The notes beneath the pieces were generated by a model that saw nothing but the letters and a program-made list of their open reading frames with translations, was not told the DNA's origin and searched no databases. This document shows positions 641 through 39,091 of a DNA stretch of 39,332 nt, piece by piece. Each line of letters starts with the position of its first letter. Within the stretch, counting starts at the first letter, position 1. This stretch comes from an uncultured Akkermansia sp. GTDB taxonomy: Bacteria; Verrucomicrobiota; Verrucomicrobiia; Verrucomicrobiales; Akkermansiaceae. Made by a program: the position numbers and the translations under genes. The stretch is from positions 1-39,332 of the forward strand of contig CANPYO010000008.1 in NCBI GenBank assembly GCA_947588645.1. The letters run 5' to 3'.

Positions 641-692
641 GCTTTTTCTTGGGACGGATGTGCGCTTGCCCTGGGCTCGGCTTTTCTCGCAT

Positions 693-720
693 TGACGGAG
701 GGGGGAGAACATGGTAGAAT
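693..720 (+). promoter_or_regulatory. Candidate nadB promoter
   Basis: TTGACG, a 16-bp spacer and TAGAAT are present. The -10 box lies inside the first codons of the longest nadB frame. If this promoter is used, transcription begins near 727 and translation would start at the ATG at 735, not at 711. The G-rich run at 697-707 would then be promoter spacer rather than a ribosome binding site. Confidence 0.45.
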
Positions 721-2333
721 CCGCGCGTACTTTTATGATACACACCGATTTTCTTGTGGTAGGCAGTGGAGTGGCGGGGCTGAGCTTTGCACTGCGGGCG
801 GCGGAACATGGCAGCGTGACGGTGCTCTGCAAGAGTGACCCCCTGGTTTCCAGCTCTGCCAAGGCTCAGGGAGGCATTGCGGCAGTCACAGATAAAAACG
901 ACAGCTTTGAAGAACACATCGCCGACACTCTGGATGCCGGGGCAGGGCTCTGCGACGAACAGGCTGTGCGCACGATTGTGACCGAAGCGCCCGAAGCCAT
1001 TCGCGAATTGTTGGAATGGGGGGTGGACTTCGACCAGATGAAGGATGGAGCCTTTGAGTTGGGCAGGGAGGGCGGCCACGGCAAACGACGCATTCTTCAC
1101 GCCAAAGATACTACCGGACTGGAGATTTCCACCAAGCTGCTGGAATGTGCCAAACGTCATCCCAACATCACTCTGCTGGATCACCGCATCGCCATTGATT
1201 TGATCACCACGGCAAAGTTGGGCTGTGTCACGGAAGACCGCGTGCTGGGGGCTTATGTGTTGAACCCCGCCACAAGTGAGGTGGAGATATTTCGCAGTGA
1301 TCGCGTGCTGTTGGCCACAGGTGGCACCGGGCGCGTGTATATGTACACCACCAATCCTCCCACGGCCACGGGGGACGGCATTGCGATGGCCTGGCGCGCC
1401 GGGGCGCAAATCTCGAACATGGAGTTTGTGCAATTCCATCCCACAACCTTCTACAACCCCAAGAGCCCGGATCGTGAGGGGCTCACCTTTCTCATCTCTG
1501 AAGCGGTGCGCGGTGAAGGCGGCATCCTGAAAGGACCGGATGGAAAGGAGTTCATGCAAAAGTACGATTCGCGCAAGAGCTTAGCGCCACGCGATATCGT
1601 GGCTCGTGCCATCAACAGCGAAATCCTGCGCACCGGGCACCCCTGTATGTACCTGGATATGACTCACAAGCCCGTCGGCTTCATGGCTGAGCGCTTCCCT
1701 TACATCTACGAGACATGCAAAAGTTACGGCATTGATGCTGAGCACGACATGATCCCCGTAGTTCCCTCTGCCCACTACCAATGCGGCGGCGTGAAAACTG
1801 ATACAAACGGGCAGACCAGCCTGCGCGGTCTCTTTGTGGCCGGGGAGAGCGGCTGCACGGGCTTGCACGGCGCCAACCGACTCGCCAGTAATTCTCTTCT
1901 GGAGTGCGTGGTGATCACCAAACGCGCACTTGCAGCCATGCTCACGCGACTTCCCCTCGCGCATGCGGAGGAAGCCTACCCCATTCCGGAATGGAAGCAT
2001 GGCGACCGCGTGCCGCAGGATGATTTGGCAATCCTCTACCATTGCTGGGATGAGGTGCGCCGCACCATGACGGATTATGTGAGCATCGTGCGCACGAACC
2101 ACCGCCTGCAACGCGCGGCCACCCGCCTGCGCAACATTAATCGCGAAATCCACGAATACTACTGGGGCTACCGCGTGACGCCGGAGATTCTCGATTTGCG
2201 TAACCTCGCTCTCACTGCCTCGCTCATAATCGACTGCGCCATTCGCCGGCAAGAATCACGCGGGTTGCACTACAATTTGGATGCGCCGGAGAAGTTGCTC
2301 CATCCCCGCCCAACCATTCTGCACAACGGTTGA
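711..2333 (+). CDS. nadB: L-aspartate oxidase
   Basis: NadB oxidises L-aspartate to iminoaspartate, the first step of de novo NAD synthesis, using FAD in the cytoplasm. The 540 residues equal the usual length. The N-terminal FAD-binding motif GSGVAG is at residues 18-23, followed by AQGGIAAV near 52-59. HAKDTTG, the active-site segment EAVRGEGG, SAHYQCGG and the C-terminal FAD motif GLHGANRLASNSLLE are all present, so the family call is firm. The start is uncertain. ATG 711 follows a GGAGG-like run, while ATG 735 (MIHTDFLVVGSG) fits the promoter at 693-720. No nadA or nadC lies nearby. Two genes follow closely on the same strand, and the next starts 24 bp after this stop. Confidence 0.95.
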   Translation: MVESARTFMIHTDFLVVGSGVAGLSFALRAAEHGSVTVLCKSDPLVSSSAKAQGGIAAVTDKNDSFEEHIADTLDAGAGLCDEQAVRTIVTEAPEAIRELLEWGVDFDQMKDGAFELGREGGHGKRRILHAKDTTGLEISTKLLECAKRHPNITLLDHRIAIDLITTAKLGCVTEDRVLGAYVLNPATSEVEIFRSDRVLLATGGTGRVYMYTTNPPTATGDGIAMAWRAGAQISNMEFVQFHPTTFYNPKSPDREGLTFLISEAVRGEGGILKGPDGKEFMQKYDSRKSLAPRDIVARAINSEILRTGHPCMYLDMTHKPVGFMAERFPYIYETCKSYGIDAEHDMIPVVPSAHYQCGGVKTDTNGQTSLRGLFVAGESGCTGLHGANRLASNSLLECVVITKRALAAMLTRLPLAHAEEAYPIPEWKHGDRVPQDDLAILYHCWDEVRRTMTDYVSIVRTNHRLQRAATRLRNINREIHEYYWGYRVTPEILDLRNLALTASLIIDCAIRRQESRGLHYNLDAPEKLLHPRPTILHNG

Positions 2334-6011: not shown

Positions 6012-7103
6012 TTATTCCACCATAGGGAACAGGGCGAAAAGGTGCTTATTCCCCGTGATGTCCAAAAGTTCGGGAAGGCCTATTTCCGGAGATGTCTTGA
6101 ACCATAGTTCAAAGCGACGAAGGTCTGCGGCGGCAATGACCGTTGCTCTCGCGTAAACTTGTCGGTTGAATCGCCAGCGTGCCAGGTCGAAAATCGGTTG
6201 ATCATTGCCCAACAGCAGACAAATCAGTCTGATTTTTTTATGCAATTCCTCCAGCTGCTCTCGGTTGGACTTTCCGTCAGTAATCGGAATGATCCATGGA
6301 GACTCACGGGTCAGGCCGGGACCTCCGATGGCTCCCGTGCTTTGGGTGATCAGTTCTCGATTTTTCTCGATCATCTCCTGAATTTTCTTCCTTTCCTCCG
6401 GGGAATAATAGGCTGCACAGGGGGCCGGGCGGTGGAATTCCTTTGTCGCAAATTCGTACATTACAAGGGAGAGGAGGGAGGCATTGCCATAGAATCTATC
6501 TTGCGATAAGCGTTGCTTCTCCTTGTTAATTTTCACGTAGATGGCGCGCGCACGGTCTTCCTCAGAGGCGAAAGAGTACACCGTTCGTCCCTCGATGAAG
6601 CGTATACCCAGCATTTTCAATTCCAAGGCTGTACGGGCTCGCAAGTTATTGTGCATGCGCACGGATTCGGCCAGTTTTGGGGTGACGGCAGCTGCTTGCT
6701 CCGCGCTGGTGATACTGATGATCATATCTACCAGATTTTCGCGAGAGCTGAGAACCTCGTTGATCATTGCCTTCGCTTTGTCCTGCACGACTTGATTCAG
6801 ATTCTCAGGTTTGTCAGGAGGGTACGCGGGTTTAATTTCGCCCCGAGCGATTTTTTGCACGGTATCCCTCGTCGCTTTTTCCCACCAAGTTTTTGGGGCT
6901 TTAGTTTTCCAATCTGAGGGGGGTGGATTTGGCGTCGATTCCGTCACATTGCTCTGCTCTCTGGGTCGGGACGTGTCATTTGTTGGTGTTTGTGGCGGGA
7001 TTTGTTCGCTTGCCTGCTCCTGCACCTGAGATTGTTCATCTCCTGCCCAGGAGAGGCTGAGTCCTGCAATCACGACAAAGGCTATTTTCAAGAAAGCTCT
7101 CAT
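6012..7103 (-). CDS. Secreted hypothetical protein
   Basis: The 363-residue product has a clear signal peptide (MRAFLKIAFVVIAGLSLSWA, cleavage before GDE). A low-complexity Gln/Pro/Thr/Ser linker follows to about residue 65. The rest is a largely helical, charged domain with segments such as DKAKAMINEVLSSRENLVDM and EERKKIQEMIEKNREL. No family was recognised. It stands alone between two repeat regions. The start is supported by the signal peptide and by a promoter whose -10 box ends 6 bp before the ATG. Confidence 0.75.
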   Translation of the reverse strand: MRAFLKIAFVVIAGLSLSWAGDEQSQVQEQASEQIPPQTPTNDTSRPREQSNVTESTPNPPPSDWKTKAPKTWWEKATRDTVQKIARGEIKPAYPPDKPENLNQVVQDKAKAMINEVLSSRENLVDMIISITSAEQAAAVTPKLAESVRMHNNLRARTALELKMLGIRFIEGRTVYSFASEEDRARAIYVKINKEKQRLSQDRFYGNASLLSLVMYEFATKEFHRPAPCAAYYSPEERKKIQEMIEKNRELITQSTGAIGGPGLTRESPWIIPITDGKSNREQLEELHKKIRLICLLLGNDQPIFDLARWRFNRQVYARATVIAAADLRRFELWFKTSPEIGLPELLDITGNKHLFALFPMVE

Positions 7104-7109
7104 GGTAGC

Positions 7110-7137
7110 ATCCTACAGGAGAACTCTTGTTTTTCAA
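7110..7137 (-). promoter_or_regulatory. Promoter abutting the start of the secreted hypothetical gene
   Basis: On the minus strand this is TTGAAA, a 16-bp spacer, TAGGAT and six bases, then ATG. The expected transcription start falls on or within a base of the start codon, which predicts a leaderless mRNA. Confidence 0.55.
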
Positions 7138-7218: not shown

Positions 7219-7461
7219 CAGGGCAAACGCATTAGAAAATGCGTTTGCCTATTTACGATTTACGATTTACGATGTACGATTTATTGATAACGTGCGCATT
7301 GCGCAGATTTTTTTCGAATCATTAACGTGTGCAGAGATTCCTTTAGAGCGGTCATCATGATGACCGCTTGTTGTCATGATTTTTGATACGTATAAACATG
7401 AATATCAGTCAATAAGATTGTTGCCTCCGTTGATTACCTTCTCTCAAATGCGTTTGCCCTG
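7219..7461. mobile_element. MITE-like element, copy 1
   Basis: This 243-bp element begins CAGGGCAAACGCATT and ends with its inverted complement AATGCGTTTGCCCTG. Next to the left end is a hairpin, then a run of TACGATT octamers, then a core with GTGCGCATTGCGCAG and the perfect 20-bp palindrome GCGGTCATCATGATGACCGC (7348-7367). No protein is encoded. I see no target duplication at this copy. Its right 53 bp form the 3' end of the convergent SMUG1 gene. The other copies are at 20935, 24893, 28296 and 32121. Confidence 0.85.
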
Positions 7462-8206
7462 GGGGCGGAGGAAGTTGAGCTCGGCTCAACAAGTCAAGTA
7501 TCTGTTCGCGCGGTTTATCCGGCCAGCACTTGTTGGAGATAGGATTGGCGGGACTGGGATGCAAGATGCTACCTAAGGTGAAGGTGGTTTCAGGGATGGC
7601 TGTGGCGGCGATTTGTAGCTGCTGCAGGGCATAGGCGCCCACGCCGATGAGGCAGGTGGGGCGCAACGCGCGAATGAGGCGCACCAGATGGCGCTGACAG
7701 GCTCTATCAATGCGGGTGGCTTGCTCGCGCGGAAGCTGGGTGGGAGGAATATTGGCGCCGCTTTCGCTCATCCAGATGAGCGGGCAATAGTTGGCGACAT
7801 AAGCCTGATCGAAGAAGCGCTCAGCTGTGCCGTAGAGTTGTTCGAAAAGCCCCCATAGCCGCCGTCCGCTCACTTCGGAGCGTGGGCAGGAAAAGCCTTG
7901 GATGGGACGTTTGGGATGCGTTTTTTCAGGCTGACCGACAGCGGCGGTGATGCCCATCCAGAGGGTGACAGCGGGGATTTCGCCAAAGGGCACACCGGTC
8001 TGTGCCATGCCGAAGGGACCTGGGTTCATGCCCAGGTAGAGCACCTGCTTGGGAGTTGTGGCGAAGCGGCGGATATAGGCCTCGTGTCCGGCCCATGCAT
8101 AGTTGAGTGGGTTGTAGGTGAAAGCAACGGGCGGCACAAAACGCAGGGTGTCCATTTCTGCCGAAAGCTCACGCGCGGCGGTCAAAACTTCATCAAGGCA
8201 ATCCAT
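7409..8206 (-). CDS. SMUG1-type uracil-DNA glycosylase
   Basis: This base-excision repair enzyme removes uracil and some oxidised pyrimidines from DNA. It is identified by the SMUG1 active-site motif GMNPGPFGMAQTGVPFGE (residues 59-76), by ANYCPL (138-143) and by HPSPANP (216-222). The product is 265 residues. The last 17 residues (PGQTHLREGNQRRQQSY) and the stop codon are read from the end of MITE copy 1, so the original C-terminus has been replaced. The conserved catalytic part is intact, so the protein is probably still functional. The start was chosen because a promoter ends 6 bp before this ATG. It is divergent from parA with 75 bp between them. Confidence 0.9.
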   Translation of the reverse strand: MDCLDEVLTAARELSAEMDTLRFVPPVAFTYNPLNYAWAGHEAYIRRFATTPKQVLYLGMNPGPFGMAQTGVPFGEIPAVTLWMGITAAVGQPEKTHPKRPIQGFSCPRSEVSGRRLWGLFEQLYGTAERFFDQAYVANYCPLIWMSESGANIPPTQLPREQATRIDRACQRHLVRLIRALRPTCLIGVGAYALQQLQIAATAIPETTFTLGSILHPSPANPISNKCWPDKPREQILDLLSRAQLPPPPGQTHLREGNQRRQQSY

Positions 8207-8212
8207 GCGAGC

Positions 8213-8242
8213 ATGATAGCACAAAGAAGCGGTATTGACCAA
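8213..8242 (-). promoter_or_regulatory. Promoter abutting the SMUG1 gene start
   Basis: On the minus strand this is TTGGTC, an 18-bp spacer, TATCAT and six bases, then ATG. The predicted transcript begins at the start codon. It lies back to back with the parA promoter and does not overlap it. Confidence 0.5.
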
Positions 8243-8254
8243 CAAAATATCGGC

Positions 8255-8283
8255 TTGAAAAGAGTGGGAGAATTCGGTAAAAT
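8255..8283 (+). promoter_or_regulatory. Candidate parA promoter overlapping the annotated start
   Basis: TTGAAA, a 17-bp spacer and TAAAAT are present. The last two -10 bases are the first two bases of the ATG at 8282. If used, transcription begins near 8290 and translation would begin at GTG 8291, seven bases after the -10 box, giving MKVIAIANQ. Confidence 0.45.
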
Positions 8284-9055
8284 GCCGGACGTGAAGGTAA
8301 TCGCCATAGCAAATCAGAAGGGAGGGGTTGGCAAGACCTCGACGGCAGTGAATCTCGCTGCGGCTTTGGCGGCTCGGGGCAAGGAGGTGCTGCTCATCGA
8401 TGTGGATTCGCAGGCCAATGCAACCTCCGCTCTTGGTTTTTCTGTGGCAGGGGAACAGAGTCTCTACCAAGCTCTCATCGGCAAATGCACGTTAGAGAAC
8501 CTCGTCATCTCCGCCAATCGCCGCCACCTTTCGCTCGTACCTTCGCACATGGATCTTTCGGGTGTCGAGGTGGAGCTTACGCAGGGGGGAGAGCATACCG
8601 GTTGCATGCAACGCGCATTGGCCGGGTTGCGGGAAAGCTCCGCGTTCGACTACGTGTTTTTAGATACACCGCCTTCGCTCGGCGTGCTGATGACGGCGTC
8701 GCTGTGCGCGAGTGATGAAGTGCTCACGCCGATGCAGTGCGAGTTTTTGAGCTTGGAGGGGCTCTCAAAGATTCTTTTCGTGATTGATCAGATACGCGAC
8801 AGTGGCATTCAGCCCGGCATCATCCACGAGGGCATCCTCATGACCATGTACAACAACACGAACCTGGCCAATCAGGTGATTGATCAGGTGCAGGAGAACC
8901 TGCCGGACAAGATATACGAAACCGTGATACCCCGCTCGGTACGCGTGGCAGAGGCGCCCAGTTTCGGACGTACCGTGCTGGAGCACGACCCGGAAGGAGC
9001 GGCTGCCTGGGCTTATAAAAATGCGGCGAAGGAATTTTTGCGCCGCCATCGGTGA
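8282..9055 (+). CDS. parA: ParA/Soj-type chromosome partitioning ATPase
   Basis: This is a deviant Walker-type ATPase of the ParA/MinD superfamily. It dimerises on ATP, binds DNA non-specifically and moves ParB-bound origin regions. NQKGGVGKTSTAVNLAAALA (deviant Walker A, starting near residue 12), LLIDVDSQANAT (Walker A') and YVFLDTPPSLGVL (Walker B) are present, and the 257-residue length fits Soj. No parB follows; the next gene is comF, overlapping the stop as TGATG. The ATG at 8282 has a poorly placed GGGAG 11 bp upstream. GTG 8291 is the alternative suggested by the promoter. Without a nearby parB, a role on another cargo cannot be excluded. Confidence 0.88.
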   Translation: MPDVKVIAIANQKGGVGKTSTAVNLAAALAARGKEVLLIDVDSQANATSALGFSVAGEQSLYQALIGKCTLENLVISANRRHLSLVPSHMDLSGVEVELTQGGEHTGCMQRALAGLRESSAFDYVFLDTPPSLGVLMTASLCASDEVLTPMQCEFLSLEGLSKILFVIDQIRDSGIQPGIIHEGILMTMYNNTNLANQVIDQVQENLPDKIYETVIPRSVRVAEAPSFGRTVLEHDPEGAAAWAYKNAAKEFLRRHR

Positions 9056-11292: not shown

Positions 11293-13236
11293 TTACCGTT
11301 TGACCCTTCTGCCTTCACAGTCACGCAGCAGCGCTTGCCAAAGCGAATCAATGCCGATAGAAACCGCTTCCTTCGAGGTGACCAAGTCGGCGCCGGGTTG
11401 ACTGTGGGCGAAAAGGTAGAACTTAATTTTGGGCTCGGTGCCACTGGGGCGCACGGCAAAGCTGCGACCATCTGCCAGATCGATGAAAAGTAAATTTTCT
11501 GCCGGTACAGGGTCTCCCTCGGCATCCTTCATCGTGCCATGCGAGAAGTCGCGCACGGCAACCACGGGCGAGCCATCCATCTGTGCGGGCGGGTCAGAGA
11601 TAAAGCTGCGTGTGAGTGCGGCAATTTGCGTCGCGCCGTCCGCGCCTTCCATGACCAGGCTCTTTCCCGCTTCCTGGTAGTAGCCGAATTGCGTGTAAAG
11701 CGAGTTGAGACACTCCAACAGTCCGGTGCCTCGGGATGCAAGGTATGCGTTCAGCTCTGCCAGGCAAAGCGCGGCAGCATTCGCATCCTTGTCCCGCACA
11801 AAATCTTGCGCCAGGTAGCCATAACTCTCCTCCCCGCCAAAGACGAAGTACTTGCTGTGTTGCAGGCGTAGGGAACGAGTCGAGGCTTCATCCATGCGGC
11901 GGTAGTCGGCGCGCAGGTTTTCGGGGATGGCGTGCTCGTATTTGCCCAGTTTAGCGGCAATATACTTGAAGCCGGTGAGCACATTGACCGTCTGTATGTC
12001 ATAGGCTGCGGCCAAGGCATCCTGCAGCGGGCTGGTCACGTAGGTTTTCACCATCACAGCGTGCTCCGCGTTTTGAGCGGTTATAATCCCAAGCTCGCGC
12101 ATGCTCATGCATCGGTACCAGGCCAGCAGGCAACCTGTCTGGTTGCCGGTGAGCAGCTGCATCTTACCCGTCGTCTTGTCACGCACGGCAATTCCCATGC
12201 GGTCACTGTCCGGATCAGTGGCAATGACCAAGTCGGCATTCTCCGCATCAGCTTGGGCGATAGCCATATCCAAAGCAGGTGCATTTTCCGGATTGGGGCT
12301 CTGCACGGTGGGAAAACGGCCATCCTGCACGTCCTGCGCTGCCACGGTGCTCACCCGACAGCCCAGCTCGCGCAGCAGCGGCACAATGCAGCGCTTGCCG
12401 GTGCCGTGCAAATTGGTGTACACAACCTTTGCCGCTCCTGCCTGCGCAAACACCTCCGGACGGAGGATGATGCCCTTCAATCGCTCCATAAATCGCGCAT
12501 CCATCTCCGCCCCCAGCGTGCGCAGCGAGCCTCGTTCAGCCTCAGGAAGAGGAGTATAGGTATCACTCGTCAGTGCATTCACCTCGGCAATCACACCCGT
12601 ATCGTGCGGTGGCACCAGCTGAGCCCCATCGTTAAAGTATGCCTTGAATCCGTTATCGTGCGCTGGGTTGTGCGAGGCGGTAATGACCACACCGGTATCG
12701 GCATTCAGCTCGCGGATGGCAAAGGAGACTTCCGGTGTAGAGCAGGGACCGTCGAAAAGAGCGCAGTCGCAGCCCAGATCCGTCGCAATTTTTGCGCATA
12801 GTTCGGCAAATTCGCGCGAGAAATGGCGTGTGTCGTGCCCCACAACAATCAGCGGCTTGCGAGTACCGACGAATTGTCGCACATACGTGATGAGTCCGCG
12901 CATGGCTCGCCCCACATTGTAGAAGTTCATGCATGCCGTTCCCACGCAGGGGTGCTCCGGCCTTCCGTTCACCCCGCCGCGACCCTGTTCGGCCGCGGTG
13001 ACAGTGGCGCCGATGGTGCGCCCGCGCAGGCCGCCTGTTCCAAAGGCGAGAGTCTTGTAAAACCGGTTGTTGAGCTCTTCCCAGTTTTTTTCTTCCGTGA
13101 GCTCACTCACAGCCGCCGCCGCTATGGGATCCACCGTGCCGCTCAGCAGCAACCGGATATTCTTCAGCGCCGCCTCCTGCAGTTCCCCCTCAGCCACAGC
13201 CCCCTCCAATGCATGCAATTCTTGCTCGCTCATCAT
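11293..13236 (-). CDS. Alpha-D-phosphohexomutase (phosphoglucomutase/phosphomannomutase)
   Basis: The enzyme interconverts hexose 1- and 6-phosphates. It has the four-domain layout of the phosphohexomutase superfamily. The phosphoserine loop TASHNPAHDNGFKAYF has S188, the Mg-binding loop DPDSDR is at 341-346, the sugar-recognition loop is GGEESYG (about 452), and the phosphate-binding loop RPSGTEPK is near the C-terminus. At 647 residues it resembles the long PGM2/PgcA-type enzymes more than the roughly 450-residue AlgC/GlmM types. Glucose versus mannose preference cannot be decided. The first two codons are both ATG. A TTGGCT-17-TAGAAT promoter ends 9 bp before the first. DUF486 and xerD follow in the same operon. 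Confidence 0.92.
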   Translation of the reverse strand: MMSEQELHALEGAVAEGELQEAALKNIRLLLSGTVDPIAAAAVSELTEEKNWEELNNRFYKTLAFGTGGLRGRTIGATVTAAEQGRGGVNGRPEHPCVGTACMNFYNVGRAMRGLITYVRQFVGTRKPLIVVGHDTRHFSREFAELCAKIATDLGCDCALFDGPCSTPEVSFAIRELNADTGVVITASHNPAHDNGFKAYFNDGAQLVPPHDTGVIAEVNALTSDTYTPLPEAERGSLRTLGAEMDARFMERLKGIILRPEVFAQAGAAKVVYTNLHGTGKRCIVPLLRELGCRVSTVAAQDVQDGRFPTVQSPNPENAPALDMAIAQADAENADLVIATDPDSDRMGIAVRDKTTGKMQLLTGNQTGCLLAWYRCMSMRELGIITAQNAEHAVMVKTYVTSPLQDALAAAYDIQTVNVLTGFKYIAAKLGKYEHAIPENLRADYRRMDEASTRSLRLQHSKYFVFGGEESYGYLAQDFVRDKDANAAALCLAELNAYLASRGTGLLECLNSLYTQFGYYQEAGKSLVMEGADGATQIAALTRSFISDPPAQMDGSPVVAVRDFSHGTMKDAEGDPVPAENLLFIDLADGRSFAVRPSGTEPKIKFYLFAHSQPGADLVTSKEAVSIGIDSLWQALLRDCEGRRVKR

Positions 13237-13245
13237 AGCAACGCT

Positions 13246-13274
13246 ATTCTAGCATGCGCAGAATGATTAGCCAA
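13246..13274 (-). promoter_or_regulatory. Promoter of the phosphohexomutase operon
   Basis: On the minus strand this is TTGGCT, a 17-bp spacer and TAGAAT, with the -10 box ending 9 bp before the first ATG. It predicts a leader of about 2 nt. Confidence 0.5.
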
Positions 13275-13621: not shown

Positions 13622-13651
13622 TTGCTCAAGGGCAGGGGAGTAGGGTAGAAT
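13622..13651 (+). promoter_or_regulatory. Promoter of the DUF4492-cydAB operon
   Basis: TTGCTC, an 18-bp spacer and TAGAAT are present, with the -10 box ending 8 bp before the ATG of the DUF4492 gene. A leaderless or 1-nt-leader transcript is expected. I see no obvious FNR- or ArcA-like operator. Confidence 0.5.
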
Positions 13652-13659
13652 AGTGGACG

Positions 13660-13860
13660 ATGAGCTTACGTGGCATCTGCAGGTTTTACAGAGATGGCTT
13701 TCGGCGCATGACGTTGGGACGCACGCTATGGTGCATTATCCTGCTCAAGTTAGCGATTATCTTTGTGGTGCTGCGTGTGTTCTTCATGACACCGTATTTG
13801 CAGGGCACGGATGAACAAAAAAGCCGTGCTGTGGCAGAGGAATTAACAAATCGAAACTGA
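13660..13860 (+). CDS. DUF4492 small membrane protein, cytochrome bd operon
   Basis: The 66-residue protein has one membrane helix (about residues 22-44). It carries the DUF4492 pattern: FYRDGFRRMTLGRTLWCIILLKL, then VFFMTP and a C-terminal DEQKSRAVAEEL. DUF4492 genes are known to sit directly before cydA in several phyla. The function is unproven, but a small accessory subunit or assembly factor of the oxidase is plausible. It ends 2 bp before the cydA start and shares its promoter. No CydX-like gene follows cydB, so this protein may fill a similar role. Confidence 0.85.
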   Translation: MSLRGICRFYRDGFRRMTLGRTLWCIILLKLAIIFVVLRVFFMTPYLQGTDEQKSRAVAEELTNRN

Positions 13861-16558: not shown

Positions 16559-16580
16559 TTCCTCGATCCTTTGTGTTGAC

Positions 16581-16635
16581 GGAGCGTCAAGCTATTCCAT
16601 GGTCTGGCGTACGAGTTGCTTCCAATCATCGGGAA
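16581..16635 (-). pseudogene. Stray fragment of the CDF transporter gene
   Basis: These 55 bp match 21542-21596, inside the CDF gene at 21367-22761, at 53 of 55 positions. On the minus strand they translate as FPDDWKQLVRQTME, a stop (TAG), then LDAP; the intact gene encodes PDDWEQLVRQTMEKLDAP. The fragment sits at the 3' end of the neighbouring hypothetical gene and provides the region around its stop codon. It looks like a remnant of a duplication or recombination. Confidence 0.75.
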
Positions 16636-20934: not shown

Positions 20935-21170
20935 CAGGGCAAACGCATTAGAAAATGCGTTTGCCCATTTACGATTTACGATTTACGATTTATTGATAGC
21001 GTGCGCATTGCGCAGATTTTTTTCGAGTCATTAACGTGTGCAGAGATTCCTTTAGAGCGGTCATCATGATGACCGCTGGTTATCACAGTTTTTGATGCGT
21101 ATAAACATGGATATCAGTTAATAAGATTGTTGCCTCCGTTGATTACCTTCTCTCAAATGCGTTTGCCCTG
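20935..21170. mobile_element. MITE-like element, copy 2, with 10-bp target duplication
   Basis: This 236-bp element has ends CAGGGCAAACGCATT and AATGCGTTTGCCCTG and the same internal order as copy 1, including the 20-bp palindrome GCGGTCATCATGATGACCGC. It is flanked by AGTCATAACG on both sides (20925-20934 and 21171-21180), a perfect 10-bp direct repeat. It has no coding capacity. Confidence 0.92.
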
Positions 21171-21366: not shown

Positions 21367-22761
21367 TTACTCGTACACCACGAAAATGCGTGCGATACGG
21401 GGGAGGGCCGCAGTGAGTTCTTGCGTGAGACGCGTGAGCACATCGTGGCTTTGGACGATGGAGAGGGTGGGGTTTGCCGGGATACAGACGAAGCAAACGC
21501 GCTGTGAGCCACGCGTGTAGAGATGGACGGCGGAAGGAACCGGAGCGTCAAGCTTTTCCATGGTCTGGCGTACGAGTTGCTCCCAATCATCGGGAATAGG
21601 TTGCTCAAAATGCGGGAGGGTGCGCATGTTCGGCTCGAGGTGTACAAAGACAGCTACGGCCTGCAATCGACGTGCTACCTCGGCACGGAAGGCTTGCACC
21701 GGCACAGCCCATGATTCTAATGTAGCCTGTGGCGGTAGCTCCAGGTCGGAGAACACAAGTAGTCCCTGGTCGGCCTCCAAAAGGCGCAGAGAGTGCACTC
21801 CCATGCGGTGTGTGAGGGCGATTTGGCGGATAAGTTGTTCCGGAGAATCAGGCTCGGTGTCTTCTGGCTGCATGTGCACCAGCGTCTCTGCCCCGGGAAG
21901 GGAACGCTCCACGAGCGCCTCGATGGCATCCGCAATTTCATGAGCCGTGTCGATGTGTAAATCACGGGGCATGCCGACGACCATTTCGAGGTAGGTGGTA
22001 TTGCCCACAGATCGGGCTCTCAAGTGTCGTAGGGGGTACGCCGGCATCTGCTCGGCCATGAGAGAGGTGATCTGCGTGTAGAGAGCCTCATCTGTGCGAT
22101 CCATGAGGTTATTGATGGCTTGCATACCGAGTATCTTGCATATATACAAGATGATGATGGACACCACGAGTGAGGAAAAGACATCTGCACGGGTGAGCAG
22201 CCAGTGAAGTGGCGAGTCCGGCGTAACTTGGTTAGAGAGCGCAGCCCCGGTAATGCCTACCAGAACAGCCGCACTGCTCCAAATATCGCTGGAAAAGTGG
22301 GCGGCATCGGCAGCCAAGGCTGCGCTGTTCGTTTCGCGCGCGGCGCGGCGCAGCATGGCTGAGCGGTTGATATCCACGGCGAGCGAGATGATGATCACGA
22401 GAAAGGCCCAGAAAGAAATATCCACACGAAGCGCGCTCGGATCATCACTCATGAGACGGTGAACAGCTTCACGTATCACCCAGATGGCCGTGCCGAGCAG
22501 CAACAGAGTCTCCGCCAGTGCCATCAAGTTCTCCACCTTGCCGTGACCGTATGGATGATCCTCGTCGGCCGGACGAGCCGCCACCTTTACCGCAAAAAGA
22601 GTACCGAGCGCAGCGAGCAGGTCGAGCATGCTGTGCAGCGCCTCAGAGAGAATGCCCAGCGACCCGGTTGCGATGCCAACAACGAGCTTGAGCACGGTGA
22701 GCACCATGCTCCAGAGAACGGATGACCACGCTGCGCGCGACTTCTTGGCATGTGTCTCCAT
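21367..22761 (-). CDS. Cation diffusion facilitator transporter with a tripled C-terminal domain
   Basis: CDF proteins export divalent metals such as Zn, Fe, Mn or Co in exchange for protons. Six helices fill residues 10-210. The metal-site residues are in SEALHSMLD (H43, D47) and DAAHFSSD (H155, D159), with DEDHPYGHGK (H69, H73) in the first cytoplasmic loop. The usual ferredoxin-like C-terminal domain follows (about 215-300, ending ETLVHMQPED). Then come two further stretches of similar size and pattern (about 305-385, ending VFVHLEPN, and 395-464). The protein is therefore about 160 residues longer than a standard CDF. It begins 17 bp after the dnaA stop and is probably co-transcribed with dnaA. 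A fragment of this gene recurs at 16581. Confidence 0.88.
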   Translation of the reverse strand: METHAKKSRAAWSSVLWSMVLTVLKLVVGIATGSLGILSEALHSMLDLLAALGTLFAVKVAARPADEDHPYGHGKVENLMALAETLLLLGTAIWVIREAVHRLMSDDPSALRVDISFWAFLVIIISLAVDINRSAMLRRAARETNSAALAADAAHFSSDIWSSAAVLVGITGAALSNQVTPDSPLHWLLTRADVFSSLVVSIIILYICKILGMQAINNLMDRTDEALYTQITSLMAEQMPAYPLRHLRARSVGNTTYLEMVVGMPRDLHIDTAHEIADAIEALVERSLPGAETLVHMQPEDTEPDSPEQLIRQIALTHRMGVHSLRLLEADQGLLVFSDLELPPQATLESWAVPVQAFRAEVARRLQAVAVFVHLEPNMRTLPHFEQPIPDDWEQLVRQTMEKLDAPVPSAVHLYTRGSQRVCFVCIPANPTLSIVQSHDVLTRLTQELTAALPRIARIFVVYE

Positions 22762-24892: not shown

Positions 24893-25120
24893 CAGGGCAA
24901 ACGCATTAGGAAATGTGTTTGCCTATGTACGAGGTACGATTTGTTAATAATGTGCGCGTTGCGCAGATTTTTTCGAATCATTAATGTATGCTGAAATCCC
25001 TTTGGAGCCAACATCATGATGATCTCTTGTTGTCATGATTTTTGATGCGTATAAACAGTGATATCAGTCAATAAGAGCATTTCCTCTGTCGATTGACTTC
25101 TCTCAAATGCGTTTGCCCTG
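24893..25120. mobile_element. MITE-like element, copy 3, with target duplication
   Basis: This 228-bp element has the 15-bp terminal inverted repeats CAGGGCAAACGCATT. The flanks are ATAAATGGTC (24883-24892) and GTAAATGGTC (25121-25130), a 10-bp duplication with one mismatch. The core is diverged from copies 1 and 2, so it is probably an older insertion. Its right edge is 54 bp from the argJ start and directly upstream of the argJ promoter. Confidence 0.9.
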
Positions 25121-25138: not shown

Positions 25139-25167
25139 TTGCTAAATAGGGGACAGGGTGGTATAGT
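25139..25167 (+). promoter_or_regulatory. Promoter abutting argJ
   Basis: TTGCTA, a 17-bp spacer, TATAGT and seven bases precede ATG 25175. A leaderless argJ transcript is predicted. GGAGGG lies only 1-2 bp before the ATG, too close to serve as a ribosome binding site. No ArgR-box pair was recognised. Confidence 0.55.
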
Positions 25168-25174
25168 GGAGGGT

Positions 25175-26431
25175 ATGAAGACGCCCTCATTTAAGGAAAT
25201 AAGCGGTGGAGTAACAGCTGCCAGGGGCTATGTGAGCCACGCGATTAGTTGTGGGATCAAGAAGCCGACTGCTACTCGGTTGGATTTAGCGCTCGTATTT
25301 TCCACAGAGCCGACGACGAGCGCCGGTGTTTTCACAACGAATCGGGTGCGTGCGGCATGCGTGCGGGTGAGTCGCGAGCACACAAGCCGCGGGAATGTAC
25401 GCGCCATCATTGCCAACAGTGGGAATGCAAATGCATGCACGGGTAAGGCGGGATTGGAGGTGGCACGCACGGAGTGTCGTCTCGTGGCACAGGAACTCGG
25501 CATCTTGCCGCGTGAGGTTGCGGTGTGTTCTACCGGTGTGATCGGTTTGCCCATGCCCATGATGCGCATAGAGCCGCGCATTCCGGAACTCTGTCGTGGT
25601 CTGGCTGCCGGAAAAGGGCACGATGTGGCCTCGGCCATCATCACCAGCGACACGAGGGAAAAGGAGGTGGCCGTGAGCTTCCGTGTGGGGGGCAAGGAAG
25701 TGAGAATCGGTTCCTGCTGCAAAGGAGCGGGCATGATATCCCCCTGCATGGCTACCATGATATGCTTGGTGTGTACAGACGCAGAGGTGGATCGCGTGGC
25801 GCTGCGCAAGCTCCTGCGCGCCGGTGTGGAGCAATCTTTTAACCGCATCACGATCGATGGCGATATGAGTACCAACGATACCTGTTTGCTGATGGCCAAC
25901 GGCGCCAGTGGCGTGAAGCTTTCGCCGGGACGTGCAGGGTGGGGTACATTCTGTGAGGCGTTGCAATATGTCCTCATGGAGCAGGCGCGACGCATTGTCA
26001 AAGATGGCGAGCGTGTCACAAAATATGTGACCGTGCGTGTGAAGGGGGCGCCGGATCGCGCGGAGGCCAGGCGTGTGGCTGAGGGCGTGGCGAAGTCATC
26101 TCTTGTGAAAAGTTCGTGGAATGGGGGGGATCCTAATTGGGGACGTATCATCCATGCCGTTGGTTACGCCGGGCGGCGAGTGCGTGAGGAGAAGGTGGAC
26201 ATCGACATAGCCGGGTTGCCTGCTTGCCGCGCCGGGGTGCAGGCTGATACCCCGAGCGATGACCTGCGCGAACGTGTACAGGCTCCGGAGTTTGAGGTCC
26301 TCATCAATCTTCACCTCGGTCGGGCAGAGTACACCGTGTACACCACTGATCTCTCTCCGGAATATGTGGATTTTAATCGTTCCGAGTATGCCTACTGGAA
26401 TCAAGCGAAACAGGATGGATTGACGCGATGA
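25175..26431 (+). CDS. argJ: Glutamate N-acetyltransferase / amino-acid acetyltransferase
   Basis: ArgJ transfers acetyl from N-acetylornithine to glutamate, closing the cyclic arginine pathway. Bifunctional forms also use acetyl-CoA. The precursor cleaves itself between Ala and Thr in the conserved GMISPCMATM. The new N-terminal Thr194 is the nucleophile. Other family segments are GVTAARGY, AIIANSGNANACTG, TGVIG and SSWNGGDPNWGRI. The product is 418 residues, close to the usual 400. The ATG at 25175 was chosen because of the promoter spacing and the family N-terminus. No other arg gene is in the window. The stop overlaps the next start as ATGA. Confidence 0.95.
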   Translation: MKTPSFKEISGGVTAARGYVSHAISCGIKKPTATRLDLALVFSTEPTTSAGVFTTNRVRAACVRVSREHTSRGNVRAIIANSGNANACTGKAGLEVARTECRLVAQELGILPREVAVCSTGVIGLPMPMMRIEPRIPELCRGLAAGKGHDVASAIITSDTREKEVAVSFRVGGKEVRIGSCCKGAGMISPCMATMICLVCTDAEVDRVALRKLLRAGVEQSFNRITIDGDMSTNDTCLLMANGASGVKLSPGRAGWGTFCEALQYVLMEQARRIVKDGERVTKYVTVRVKGAPDRAEARRVAEGVAKSSLVKSSWNGGDPNWGRIIHAVGYAGRRVREEKVDIDIAGLPACRAGVQADTPSDDLRERVQAPEFEVLINLHLGRAEYTVYTTDLSPEYVDFNRSEYAYWNQAKQDGLTR

Positions 26432-28295: not shown

Positions 28296-28530
28296 CAGGG
28301 CAAACGCATTTGAGAGAAGGTAATCAACGGAGACAACAATCTTATTAACTGATATCCATGTTTATACGCATCAAAAACCGTGATAACCAGCGGTCATCAT
28401 GATGACCGCTCTAAAGGAATCTCTGCACACGTTAATGACTCGAAAAAATCTGCGCAATGCGCACGCTATCAATAAATCGTACATCGTAAATCGTAAATGG
28501 GCAAACGCATTTTCTAATGCGTTTGCCCTG
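28296..28530. mobile_element. MITE-like element, copy 4, inverted, with perfect target duplication
   Basis: This 235-bp element is in the opposite orientation to copies 1-3, bounded by CAGGGCAAACGCATT and AATGCGTTTGCCCTG. It is flanked by ACCCAAATCG on both sides (28286-28295 and 28531-28540), a perfect 10-bp duplication. The target was itself an octamer-type sequence (CCCAAATCGTAAATG), so the element inserted into an existing repeat mosaic. It lies 18 bp upstream of the next gene's -35 box. Confidence 0.93.
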
Positions 28531-28548: not shown

Positions 28549-28577
28549 TTGACACTCCAAGCGCTGAGTGCTATGAT
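28549..28577 (+). promoter_or_regulatory. Strong promoter abutting the small hypothetical gene
   Basis: TTGACA, a 17-bp spacer and TATGAT is near consensus. Seven bases later is ATG 28585. Two in-frame ATGs at 28573 and 28576 fall inside the -10 box and cannot be used by a transcript from this promoter. Confidence 0.65.
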
Positions 28578-28584
28578 GGGGAAC

Positions 28585-29028
28585 ATGAGTACCACGGTGA
28601 ATGAACGTCAGCTTGCCGCTATCAAGAACTGGGCGGCAGAGGGAATGGATCTCAACGGCATCCAAAAAAAGCTGCAGAGCGAGTTTGGCTTGCACCTCAC
28701 ATTCATGGAAGTAAGATTCTTGATGTTGGATCACGGGATAGAGCTTGTCCAGGAAACAGCCCCAGCAGCAGAACCCAATGAGCTTGATGAAAAGGCACAG
28801 GATACACCAGCGGAGAAGGCGGATGGCAGTGTGCGCGTGGAGTTGGATGACTTGCAGCTTCCCGGCACATTACTTTCCGGGAAGGCTCATTTCCCGGGTG
28901 GGGCGGAGGGAGCGTGGCAGATAGACCAACTCGGGCGTTTTGGCTGGAGTCAACTTACCGGTACGCCTTCCCCGGAAGAGATGCAGAGCTTTCAACAGGA
29001 GCTCACCGCCATGCTGCGCCGCGCCTGA
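28585..29028 (+). CDS. Conserved hypothetical protein
   Basis: The 147-residue acidic protein has a helical N-terminal part (residues 8-50: LAAIKNWAAEGMDLNGIQKK, LTFMEVRFLMLDHGIEL) that looks like a helix-turn-helix type bundle. An Ala/Glu/Pro linker (about 55-80) follows, then a C-terminal part with GTLLSGKAHFPGG, LGRFGWSQLTG and a final helix. I have the impression of similar proteins in Verrucomicrobiota, but no function is known. The start was set by the promoter, which implies a leaderless mRNA. It converges with the dCMP deaminase gene, with only 6 bp between their stops. Confidence 0.75.
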   Translation: MSTTVNERQLAAIKNWAAEGMDLNGIQKKLQSEFGLHLTFMEVRFLMLDHGIELVQETAPAAEPNELDEKAQDTPAEKADGSVRVELDDLQLPGTLLSGKAHFPGGAEGAWQIDQLGRFGWSQLTGTPSPEEMQSFQQELTAMLRRA

Positions 29029-30811: not shown

Positions 30812-31957
30812 TTAAGGATGTCGATCGGGAGAAGTATCGAGGGTGGGGAGCTCGTTTTGGGGGTCAGAGTGCGCGGCGTCATCAATAATTGAGGCCATCC
30901 ATCGCAGGTCGGTGGAATGCTCCATAGCCAACTTCAGGAACATGGTGATGGGCACGGCCAGCAGCATGCCGATGGGCCCCCATACCCACCCCCACACGAT
31001 GACCGAAATCAGTACCATGGAGGTGGCCATACCGAACTGCTTGCCCAAGAAGAGCGGTTCTATGCCGTTGCCTATGGCAAAGTTGATGCCCAAATACCCA
31101 CCGGCTACAATGAACATGCTCCCCCAATCCCGCATGACCAGAGCCAGCAAAACAGGCGGTATGGCCGCTACGATGGATCCGATAGTCGGTATGAAATTCA
31201 GTACGCATGCCACAAATCCCCACATGAAAGCGAAGGGAACCTCCATGCAGTGACAGAGTGCCCATGCCAGCAACCCGGTACTCACACTTGCGAGCGTTTT
31301 TATGATCAGGTATTTTTGAACGCCTCGCAGCGCATCGAGCACCGTCAGTTTGCCCTGCCTGCTCGGCAAGTTGTCCAGATTACGCCGAAAAAGCGGGGCT
31401 TCTCCCAGCATGAAGGTCATCAAAATGAGTACCAACACCGTCACCGACATAAAGGAGAGCACCTGCCCGGTGATCGATTGAGAAAAAGCGATGATTTGTT
31501 GGGGATTGATGACTGGGTTCGCCTGGGAATCGAAGAGATTGTGCAACTGTTCGTGAAAAGGTAGTTCTTTGGCCAAGTCGAGGAGCTCGTTCACGCGGGT
31601 CTTGAGATGCGGCATAAAGTTGCCCTGCAAGGTTGCCTTCATATCTGCTGTCAAAAATTTCATGAGGCAAACCAACCCAAAGAGCACGGCCATATCCACG
31701 ATGACCGTACAGGTCACTGCCAGCCAGTGCGGAAGGCGTATCCCTCTGCGCATGAGGTCAATGATCGGGTAACTCACAATTGCCAGAAAGGCGGCCAAGA
31801 CAATGGGCGCCGTCATTTCCCGTGTGTATTTCAGCCCAAAGAGCACAATGAAAGCGGCCGCAGCCACCAAAAGAACGCGAGCCCCATTGCCCACCATATT
31901 CTGCGGCACCTGTTTAGTTTGCCCCGCCGGGCATTCTTCTGGCTTCGCTCTGCTCAT
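30812..31957 (-). CDS. AI-2E family transporter
   Basis: This is an integral membrane protein of the AI-2E/UPF0118 family. Members include TqsA-like autoinducer exporters and Na+/H+ antiporters. The 381-residue product has about eight helices. Paired N-terminal helices (ARVLLVAAAAFIVLFGL, LAAFLAIVSYPIIDLM) are followed by a large soluble loop and a C-terminal set with FIPTIGSIVAAIPPVLLAL and WGWVWGPIGMLLAVPIT, which are family hallmarks. The start ATG (MSRAKPEEC) lies 7 bp after a TTGAAA-17-TACAAT promoter; the ATG three codons upstream overlaps the -10 box. It is the first gene of an operon with lysA and the deaminase. The substrate is unknown, and lysine or diaminopimelate export is only a guess from context. 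Confidence 0.87.
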   Translation of the reverse strand: MSRAKPEECPAGQTKQVPQNMVGNGARVLLVAAAAFIVLFGLKYTREMTAPIVLAAFLAIVSYPIIDLMRRGIRLPHWLAVTCTVIVDMAVLFGLVCLMKFLTADMKATLQGNFMPHLKTRVNELLDLAKELPFHEQLHNLFDSQANPVINPQQIIAFSQSITGQVLSFMSVTVLVLILMTFMLGEAPLFRRNLDNLPSRQGKLTVLDALRGVQKYLIIKTLASVSTGLLAWALCHCMEVPFAFMWGFVACVLNFIPTIGSIVAAIPPVLLALVMRDWGSMFIVAGGYLGINFAIGNGIEPLFLGKQFGMATSMVLISVIVWGWVWGPIGMLLAVPITMFLKLAMEHSTDLRWMASIIDDAAHSDPQNELPTLDTSPDRHP

Positions 31958-31964
31958 CGCCGCC

Positions 31965-31993
31965 ATTGTATCCTTCCAACCTGCATATTTCAA
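31965..31993 (-). promoter_or_regulatory. Promoter of the AI-2E transporter-lysA operon
   Basis: On the minus strand this is TTGAAA, a 17-bp spacer, TACAAT and seven bases, then ATG. It implies a leaderless operon transcript. Confidence 0.6.
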
Positions 31994-32120: not shown

Positions 32121-32532
32121 AGGCAAACGCATTTGAGAGAAGTCAATCGACAGAGAAAATGCTCTTATGGTCTGATATCAATGTCTATACGTATCAAAAA
32201 TCGTGACAACAAGTGGTCATCATCATGATGGTTCTAAAGGGATCTCAGCACACATTAATGATTCGAAAAAATCTGCGCAACGCGCACATTATTAACAAAT
32301 CGTACAAAACTGCCGACGGTGTAAGGCAGGTTGGACAAAAGCGCAGCTTTTGCCCCGCAGGGGCGAAAGCGACCGACGGCTGTAAGGTCGATTAGCCAAA
32401 AGCACAGCTTTTGCCCCGGAGGGGTGAGGAGTCGTGAGGCGACTCCGAAGCAATAGGCAATGAGGTGCCTACGAGTCATCGTACATCGTACATCGTACAT
32501 AGGCAAACGCATTTTCTAATGCGTTTGCCCTG
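32121..32532. mobile_element. MITE-like element, copy 5, inverted and interrupted by other modules
   Basis: The right-end sequence (AGGCAAACGCATTTGAGAG, 32121) and core are present in inverted orientation. Inside the octamer array, at about 32306, some 180 bp of other modules are inserted: two tandem GCCGACGGC units and the GGAGTCG/CGACTCC module. The array then resumes (ATCGTACATCGTACATCG, about 32480-32510) and the left-end hairpin finishes at GCCCTG (32532). No target duplication is seen and the first end has lost its CAG. This copy is 412 bp. Confidence 0.82.
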
Positions 32533-32607: not shown

Positions 32608-33885
32608 ATGGCCATCCGGTTCCGCTCAACAAACACTGCTCGTGATAGCATCGAGTCGCTGCGTCATCGTACGCGGCAGTATGCGATCGTCTTGATGGTC
32701 GGCATTCTCTCCGCCATCTTGGGTGCTTTGTATGTCACCAAGATTCTCATTGAGACGCCCCCCATGACCGAGTTCATCGTGTACCAGGGGGATACCATTG
32801 AGAATGAGGTGAAGACTACGCCGAAGGTGCGCGATATTTCCGGCGGTAAGCCGCCTGCCGCACCTCCCGTAGCGCCCATTATTGCCGCTACAACAGATGT
32901 GGCCAATCCGTCGTTTACGATGGATGTGGATATGGATGTGCCTGCAATGTCGACGAGTGGCTTTGATTCGATAGGGGGTAACGGTTTGGGCGATGGTATG
33001 GGAGAGGGAGCCGGGCGTGGCGGCATGGGCGGCAAGAAGGTGGATTCTGCTTTCGTCGGCTATTTCTGGGATCTGAAGCGCACGGTAAATGGCAAACCAT
33101 CTGCTTACGAGGGTGCAGTTAGCAACGAACAGGTTCTTGAGTTCGAAAGTAACTTTTACAACAAGGGGTGGGATCTCGGCACCCTTGTCATGTTCATGCG
33201 TTCCAAGCAGCAACTCTACAGTACCTGTTTCTTCATGCCGAACTGCAAGGACAACGAGGCGGTGCACGCTTATGACGCCTCCGGCAAGCAGGGGCTGAAG
33301 AAGAGCCGTTGGCTTGCTGTGTATCGAGCCAAGGTAAAGGCGCCGGTTAGTGGTACCTTCCGCTTCGTGGGTGCGGCGGACACGGTGATGGCCGTGCGGT
33401 TTAACGGACGCAACGTCTTGGCTTGCGGTCTGCACAATTTGCGCAATGCAAAATGGAATGAGTGGCTGGACTTTCCCGACGTTAAAAAACAACGCGCTAC
33501 TCTCGTGGAGTACAAGGGTATCCAGGCCTGGAATGAGTCTCTCGGAGGTTTTGAGGTGGGAGACCCCGTTACCGTCAAGGCCGGTGAGTGGTACGAGATG
33601 CAGGTGATGATTTCGGAAATTGGAGGTGGAGAGTTTGGTTTCTGTTTGCTTATTGATGAAGAGGGTGGTGAGCAGAAGACCGATAAGGATGGCAAGCCCA
33701 TCTTCCAACTTTTCCGAACAAACTTCTCTGCACCCACTGTTGAATCTCTTTACGAGACCATTCCCGAGGAAAACAAGCAGAGTGATGCTGAAGGGGAAGT
33801 GATGCTTCTGAAAGAAATTCCTTATGATCCGGATAGCCGCATTTGGGAAGCTAAACCCGTGGATTCCGACGTAAAGATGAAGTAA
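32608..33885 (+). CDS. Membrane-anchored protein with a PA14-like domain
   Basis: The 425-residue product has an Arg-rich cytoplasmic N-terminus (1-25) and one membrane helix (about 26-47, YAIVLMVGILSAILGALYV). A low-complexity Pro/Ala/Gly/Met linker runs to about 150, and a large exported domain follows. That domain contains FYNKGWDLGTLVMFM, SRWLAVYRAKVKAPVSGTFR, FVGAADTVMAVRFNGRNVL and KAGEWYEMQVMISEIGGG. The order 'sugar-binding-like sheet, FNG turn, Gly-Glu-Trp-Tyr' resembles PA14 carbohydrate-binding domains. That is a family impression only. It is transcribed alone, and the Gly-rich spacer suggests a surface or periplasmic scaffold. Confidence 0.7.
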   Translation: MAIRFRSTNTARDSIESLRHRTRQYAIVLMVGILSAILGALYVTKILIETPPMTEFIVYQGDTIENEVKTTPKVRDISGGKPPAAPPVAPIIAATTDVANPSFTMDVDMDVPAMSTSGFDSIGGNGLGDGMGEGAGRGGMGGKKVDSAFVGYFWDLKRTVNGKPSAYEGAVSNEQVLEFESNFYNKGWDLGTLVMFMRSKQQLYSTCFFMPNCKDNEAVHAYDASGKQGLKKSRWLAVYRAKVKAPVSGTFRFVGAADTVMAVRFNGRNVLACGLHNLRNAKWNEWLDFPDVKKQRATLVEYKGIQAWNESLGGFEVGDPVTVKAGEWYEMQVMISEIGGGEFGFCLLIDEEGGEQKTDKDGKPIFQLFRTNFSAPTVESLYETIPEENKQSDAEGEVMLLKEIPYDPDSRIWEAKPVDSDVKMK

Positions 33886-35496: not shown

Positions 35497-38866
<3,370 letters not shown>

Positions 38867-39091
38867 CGGGTTTATGCCCCTTGTTCCGGCTGCCCGGTGA
38901 AGGCACACCGTATGCTTCTACTTCCATATGTGTCAGATCGAAGAAAAACGTAGTGTAATACACTGATTGTAAATTATTAAAGCTAACAAATAAGATTCTT
39001 GATCCAGCCCCCTCTCCAAAATGCGTTTTATTTAACAATTTTTACATGAGACGCCGATATTGAATCTGATAGATACTTTCTGAGGAGGTGT

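Follow-up and report, generated by a model that had tools for sequence, protein, structure and literature searches.

Sigma-70 type promoters close to start codons and predicted leaderless transcription in an uncultured Akkermansia sp.

Promoters and start codons in the window

The window comprises 39,332 nt of an uncultured Akkermansia sp. and is contig C8 of a 2.49 Mb genome (G000; 158 contigs), 980 kb of which was analysed. An earlier note on this DNA had claimed that nine genes carry a promoter ending 6-10 bp before the start codon, and all nine promoters lie where it had placed them, with 6, 6, 7, 7, 7, 7, 8, 9, and 10 bases separating the -10 box from the start codon (a count designated k) and with -35 boxes at the 16-18 bp that it had given. 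They are listed here together with a tenth, nadB-like gene, whose spacing is outside that range:

692..737, plus strand: nadB-like gene, promoter TTGACG-N17-TAGAAT, k 14, ATG 735 (predicted leader ~8 nt)
7101..7137, minus strand: gene without a Pfam match, promoter TTGAAA-N16-TAGGAT, k 6, ATG 7103
8204..8242, minus strand: uracil-DNA glycosylase (UDG)-superfamily (SMUG1-like) gene by Pfam, promoter TATCAT with weak -35, k 6, ATG 8206
8255..8293, plus strand: parA (ParA-type ATPase by Pfam), promoter TTGAAA-N17-TAAAAT, k 7, GTG 8291
13234..13274, minus strand: phosphomutase gene by Pfam, promoter TTGGCT-N17-TAGAAT, k 9 (AGCGTTGCT), ATG 13236
13622..13662, plus strand: DUF4492 gene by Pfam, promoter TTGCTC-N18-TAGAAT, k 8, ATG 13660
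25139..25177, plus strand: argJ (ArgJ by Pfam), promoter TTGCTA (25139-25144)-N17-TATAGT (25162-25167), then GGAGGGT (k 7) and ATG 25175
28549..28587, plus strand: gene without a Pfam match, promoter TTGACA-N17-TATGAT, k 7, ATG 28585
31955..31993, minus strand: AI-2E transporter gene by Pfam, promoter TTGAAA-N17-TACAAT, k 7, ATG 31957
38725..38766, minus strand: ligA (NAD-dependent ligase by Pfam), promoter TTGACC-N17-TATACT, k 10, ATG 38727

The weak -35 box of the SMUG1-like gene can be read in two ways: the fitted promoter model prefers TGGTCA at a spacing of 17, and TTGGTC at 18 was read by eye. This gene and parA are divergent, and the 84 bp between their starts contains both promoters, back to back; the GTG start of parA (8291) is supported by the AAA_31 model, which aligns from residue 1 of the protein. 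For ligA, a longer open frame extends from 38784 and the gene caller took an ATG 57 nt upstream; ATG 38727 is the start that fits the promoter. Among 25 window starts (34252 dropped), nine have k 6-10, one has k 14 (the nadB-like gene), six have k of at least 26 (including start 26428, whose site scores just 5.3), and eight lack a site. Predicted leaders of rpsT and of the gene at 32608 are ~20-25 nt.

In-frame ATGs lie inside or overlap the -10 box at 28573 (in the -10 box of the gene at 28585) and at 31966; with such decoy starts, a gene finder may pick a start for which the transcript from this promoter would be incomplete. A DnaA-like gene (identity by eye; 24220, minus strand) has no promoter site within 51 bp upstream, and has a purine-rich GAGAGAGAAGGACGGA leader that is among the few Shine-Dalgarno-like leaders in the window.

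Near promoters and translation starts across the genome and in relatives

Genes in the 980 kb were called with a composition model blind to upstream sequence, which replaced a first caller based on a single codon usage, since the latter misplaced argJ and other starts. On E. coli the composition model found 29 of 29 genes and gave the RefSeq start in 22; it also misplaced ligA and other ATGs, such that the fractions below are rough. First genes were defined by an upstream gap of at least 80 bp (n = 331) and operon-internal genes by a same-strand gap of <30 bp (n = 243); 3540 internal in-frame ATGs served as a third class for comparison. Genes truncated at the end of a stretch, without an upstream neighbour, or <80-90 bp from the end of a stretch were left out of the counts.

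The genome-wide peak at k 6-10 that the earlier note had told its readers to look for is present: strict TTGNNN-N16-18-TANNNT pairs fall in this range in 54 of 331 first genes, versus ~0.65 expected from internal ATGs, and in 1 of 243 operon-internal genes. For k 5 to 11 the first genes give 1, 20, 9, 6, 15, 4, and 2 strict pairs, versus an internal-ATG expectation of ~0.13 per position. TANNNT alone occurs at k 6-11 in 77/331 first genes, 11/243 operon-internal genes, and 155/3540 internal ATGs. Expectation-maximisation (EM) without a position prior (first 227 genes, best of 40 random starts) placed 44.0 of its 98.0 expected sites within k 5-11, with a TTG(A/C)CA-like -35 box, a TA(G/A/T)AAT -10 box, and a spacer of 17 in 63%; with 331 genes, 6 and 9 were once more the peaks of the posterior. 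With the model learnt on one half of the genes, 21 of 114 held-out genes had near sites, versus 2.3-3.1 in dinucleotide shuffles. The motif is thus of sigma-70 type (TTGACA-like -35, TATAAT-like -10, spacer ~17).

By the fitted model, a near promoter (k 5-11) precedes ~70 of 331 first genes (21%), or half of those (137) that have a site anywhere within 51 bp; near sites precede 2 of 243 operon-internal genes. Start miscalls would dilute this fraction, and chance matches (~1-1.5%) would add little. The starts behind near promoters are ATG in 48/48 (one set) and 68/70 (the 331-gene set), and for SerS, YchF, and FucU (k 9), DnaX (k 6), and ParA, family models align from residue 1, in agreement with the start calls.

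In G016, a close relative in the same genus, six of the seven window genes that have an ortholog show an unchanged k (UDG 6, parA 7, DUF4492 8, 28585 gene 7, AI-2E 7, mutase 9), and the spacer and discriminator bases differ while the promoter spacing stays; in the AI-2E comparison, the MAG3 row has the same letters as G016 and is apparently the same contig. No ortholog of the 7103 gene or of ligA was found in the relatives' sequence compared. The spacing of argJ varies (window 7, G016 8, G020 6, G008 7, G014 6), and in the genus members G024, G002, and G004 its best site is 18-36 bp upstream, with longer leaders; by eye, the leaders of several other relatives are also longer. Ortholog comparisons left out orthologs with <50% identity, coverage <60%, or an alignment starting beyond residue 6. 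Among the remainder, k 6-8 genes stay at 6-8 in 10 of 15 (one is at 9, three are leadered, one has no site), k 9 genes remain at 9 in 3 of 3, and leadered genes stay at k of at least 14 in 19 of 25 (three at k ≤5, three without a site). Judged from these predicted sites, leaders are gained and lost among relatives.

Since EM on fewer than ~100 genes converged on noise, the sets from relatives were searched with the G000 model at one fixed threshold. Near sites precede first genes in G004 (9/75), G015 (9/82), and GENUS2 (19/92; ten pooled genus members, including 40 kb of G016), and, in other families of the order, in G029 (9/92), G027 (9/88), and G026 (4/45). Operon-internal genes of the same six sets, in that order, give 3/42, 0/26, 3/83, 1/12, 0/27, and 1/14, and internal ATGs of the relatives' sets give 0.8-1.8%. 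With the same model, first genes have near sites in 2/76 for E. coli and in 1/60 for a D. deserti plasmid, the latter an intended positive control that proved weak (TANNNT alone 5/60). The near-promoter trait seems to reach beyond the genus, albeit on small numbers.

Before the first genes of G000 there is no Shine-Dalgarno signal above shuffles (11.0% versus 13.1%), with motifs in 12.9% of near-promoter genes and 11.5% of the others; the E. coli control gives 39.5% versus 21.1% shuffled. A 16S gene was not found in the G000 assembly, and the CCTCC of the 16S tail is intact in all five relatives having a 16S gene (5 of 11 genomes). Few Shine-Dalgarno motifs agree with the published placement of Akkermansia among Shine-Dalgarno-scarce organisms with an intact CCUCC (2024, PMC10783764); that study, in its treatment of such organisms, draws no tie to promoter placement. 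Operon-internal leaders are G-poor (15.0% G versus 28.0% before non-start ATGs), and two pyrimidines precede the AUG in 65% of 158 operon-internal G000 genes. The corresponding values are 16% for 319 non-start ATGs, 31% for 3540 internal ATGs, and 21% for 29 in E. coli. Relatives show this pyrimidine-pyrimidine-AUG context in 64% of 42 (G016), 73% of 37 (G061), 55% of 56 (G004), and 72% of 25 (G029), and at lower levels in G015 (45% of 29) and G027 (41% of 27). The value for D. deserti is high as well (67% of 12), hence the context is not special to the genus.

We posit, with a probability of roughly 0.88, that these are ordinary housekeeping-sigma (sigma-70 type) promoters placed such that transcription begins on the start codon itself or a few bases upstream. 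The mRNA should begin at, or no more than ~3 nt from, the start codon in many genes. With +1 at about the seventh base after the -10 box, the A of the AUG would itself be +1 at k 6-7, giving a true leaderless mRNA, and k 8-10 would give a leader of ~2-4 nt; translation would then be initiated without Shine-Dalgarno pairing, presumably through recognition of a 5'-proximal AUG by the 70S ribosome or the initiator tRNA. The exact 5' ends, the placing of +1 at the seventh base, and the ribosomal mechanism are what we infer from sequence. The earlier note had spoken of widespread leaderless transcripts: leaderless or near-leaderless transcription is well supported here by promoter position, conservation, the absence of a Shine-Dalgarno signal, and pyrimidine-purine initiator context, but as a class and not a rule, since roughly one fifth of promoter-proximal genes would be leaderless or nearly so.

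It is improbable that those -10 matches close to the start codons represent secondary or spurious promoters, with the true ones lying further upstream and giving ordinary leaders. Nearly half of the best sites do lie at k 12-51, and some genes may carry two promoters; against this, of the 137 best sites in first genes, 70 fall at k 5-11 while operon-internal genes have the two near sites given above, the -35/-10 pair is kept in orthologs although the intervening bases diverge, and the Shine-Dalgarno signal that an ordinary leader would carry is lacking. Least probable of all is that the start codons are misplaced and that the true starts lie further downstream, behind longer leaders. The start accuracy of the caller in E. 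coli (22/29) leaves some room for such errors, but miscalls would blur a peak, not create one; moreover, the family models of several members align from residue 1, and near-promoter starts are so consistently ATG (48/48 and 68/70).

Leaderless transcription in the genus has experimental precedent. In A. muciniphila from mouse cecum, Cappable-seq showed 10% of start sites (886 high-confidence positions) to be leaderless, at annotated starts, and -10 and -35 logos were reported (Ettwiller et al. 2016, PMC4782308). The earlier note was unaware of leaderless genes as a rule in this group; they are not the rule here, but the class itself was already in print. Those sites are experimental, whereas ours are predicted and in another species of the same genus, and the sections of that study on these sites do not describe two spacing registers (PMC4782308). 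The TA-led genes defined by Zheng et al. 2011 (PMC3160421) share with the G000 genes a TANNNT ~12 bp before the start codon (counted from its first T) that exceeds shuffled controls; their study searched 20 bp upstream without using the -35 box, and neither Verrucomicrobi- nor Akkermansia appears in its main text. In Deinococcus-Thermus, a -10 motif ~6-7 bp before an ORF marks promoters of leaderless mRNAs (2025, PMC12340547). The same distance applies to 34 of our 70 near sites (k 6-7), with 20 more at k 9. The Deinococcus-Thermus class is described as mostly without a classical -35 (PMC12340547), whereas the TTG of the Akkermansia -35 is nearly invariant in the fitted model (0.97, 0.98, 0.95), in a search that required a -35/-10 pair and so would miss -10-only genes.

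Two spacings and the bases before the start codon

Near sites in G000 number 22, 12, 7, 20, 5, and 3 at k 6 to 11, and those in G016 number 3, 0, 1, 7, 0, and 2. The two G000 peaks are stable over score thresholds and in the model-free pattern (20, 9, 6, 15, 4 at k 6-10); the k 9 count exceeds the mean of its neighbours (20 versus 6, Poisson 5e-6), the peak having been noticed before testing. Only G000 and G016 show the k 9 peak clearly: two clear peaks were not seen in six other sets of relatives pooled (15, 6, 11, 10, 4 at k 6-10), and G061 gives 4, 2, 1, 2, 2.

The two spacings differ in the base before the ATG, which is C in 18/22 (T in 4/22) at k 6 and T in 16/20 at k 9 (C 18/22 versus T 16/20, Fisher 1.7e-5). 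The pyrimidine at k 6 is as expected if the A of the AUG is +1. At k 9, the sixth base after the -10 box is C in 12/20 and the seventh is G in 14/20; leadered promoters likewise favour C (24/58) and then a purine (G 23/58 or A 13/58) in the same places, thus the seventh base after the -10 box is probably +1. The predicted 3-nt leader at k 9 is then purine-pyrimidine-pyrimidine (R-Y-Y, as in GCU and GUU) in 12/20, versus 9/58 in the corresponding places of leadered promoters (Fisher 2.7e-4), and the end of this putative leader has the two pyrimidines before AUG that are also typical of operon-internal starts. At k 9, transcription could alternatively begin with the A of the AUG, after a long discriminator; a pyrimidine precedes this A in 90% of k 9 sites.

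A possible, though somewhat doubtful, interpretation of the two peaks is that promoter placement is quantised in this clade, with both 0-nt (AUG at +1) and 3-nt (R-Y-Y-AUG) leaders selected and those of 1-2 nt rarer, because of a double demand by polymerase and ribosome. The polymerase would want a purine at +1 and the ribosome, without Shine-Dalgarno pairing, two pyrimidines before the AUG; 3 nt would be the shortest leader to meet both demands, and 0 and 3 nt would both satisfy them. The chances are about even that the k 9 peak is instead an accident or a local feature and that the spacing is simply broad, at 6-9. The counts from the six pooled sets and from G061 point that way, as do the post hoc nature of the test and the overlap between the two genomes, in which three of the seven k 9 genes of G016 have a k 9 gene as their G000 ortholog; the G000 and G016 counts at k 6-10, the difference between registers in the base before the ATG, and the stability of the peak over thresholds and in the model-free pattern speak against it.

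The k 9 genes include gyrB, serS, glyS, guaA, leuA, ahcY, ychF, and parB, and the k 6 genes dnaX, alr, proS, gpmI, and thiE. Of the 42 proteins of the two registers, 39 were scanned with NCBIfam and two, in the window, with Pfam; L039:13627 (k 6) was left out. A separation of gene functions by register was considered and dropped, as housekeeping genes occur in both.

Leaderless start sites were known in the genus; the two-peaked spacing in the G000 species and its closest relative, and the predicted zero- and 3-nt leaders, seem to be new here, and the open-licence literature yielded no paper describing either two such registers or a class of 3-nt leaders in this group. What was a passing line of a methods paper becomes a sequence-level pattern for Akkermansia, in which the quantised spacing and the pyrimidine context are worth laboratory time. 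Housekeeping genes whose translation is predicted to begin at an AUG with no leader or almost none include gyrB, serS, glyS, proS, guaA, dnaX, alr, ligA, parA, and parB. This would affect start-codon annotation and the way in which expression constructs are designed for a medically interesting gut bacterium, as well as expectations on drugs such as kasugamycin, which spares leaderless mRNAs. The two registers, if true, would offer a naturally occurring test of how the first mRNA bases are shared between polymerase and ribosome where Shine-Dalgarno pairing is not used.

Repeats in the window

Three copies of a dispersed, small-MITE-like element of ~200 nt lie at 7258-7461, 20967-21170, and 24917-25120, the last of which ends 18 bp before the -35 box of argJ. 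The element ends were read by eye as inverted repeats (CAGGGCAAACGCATT / AATGCGTTTGCCCTG), and the same element, reversed, seems to make up a second pair, at 28299-28483 and 32122-32306. A short palindromic repeat, AAACGCATTTTCTAATGCGTTTGCCC, has 14 copies, from 417-448 to 38842-38873, in many intergenic regions, and is adjoined by runs of a ATCGTACATCGTAAAT-like unit. A 56-bp repeat (96%), perhaps a small duplication, occurs at 21541-21596, inside the gene at 21367-22761, and at 16580-16635, just downstream of a minus-strand gene ending at 16626.
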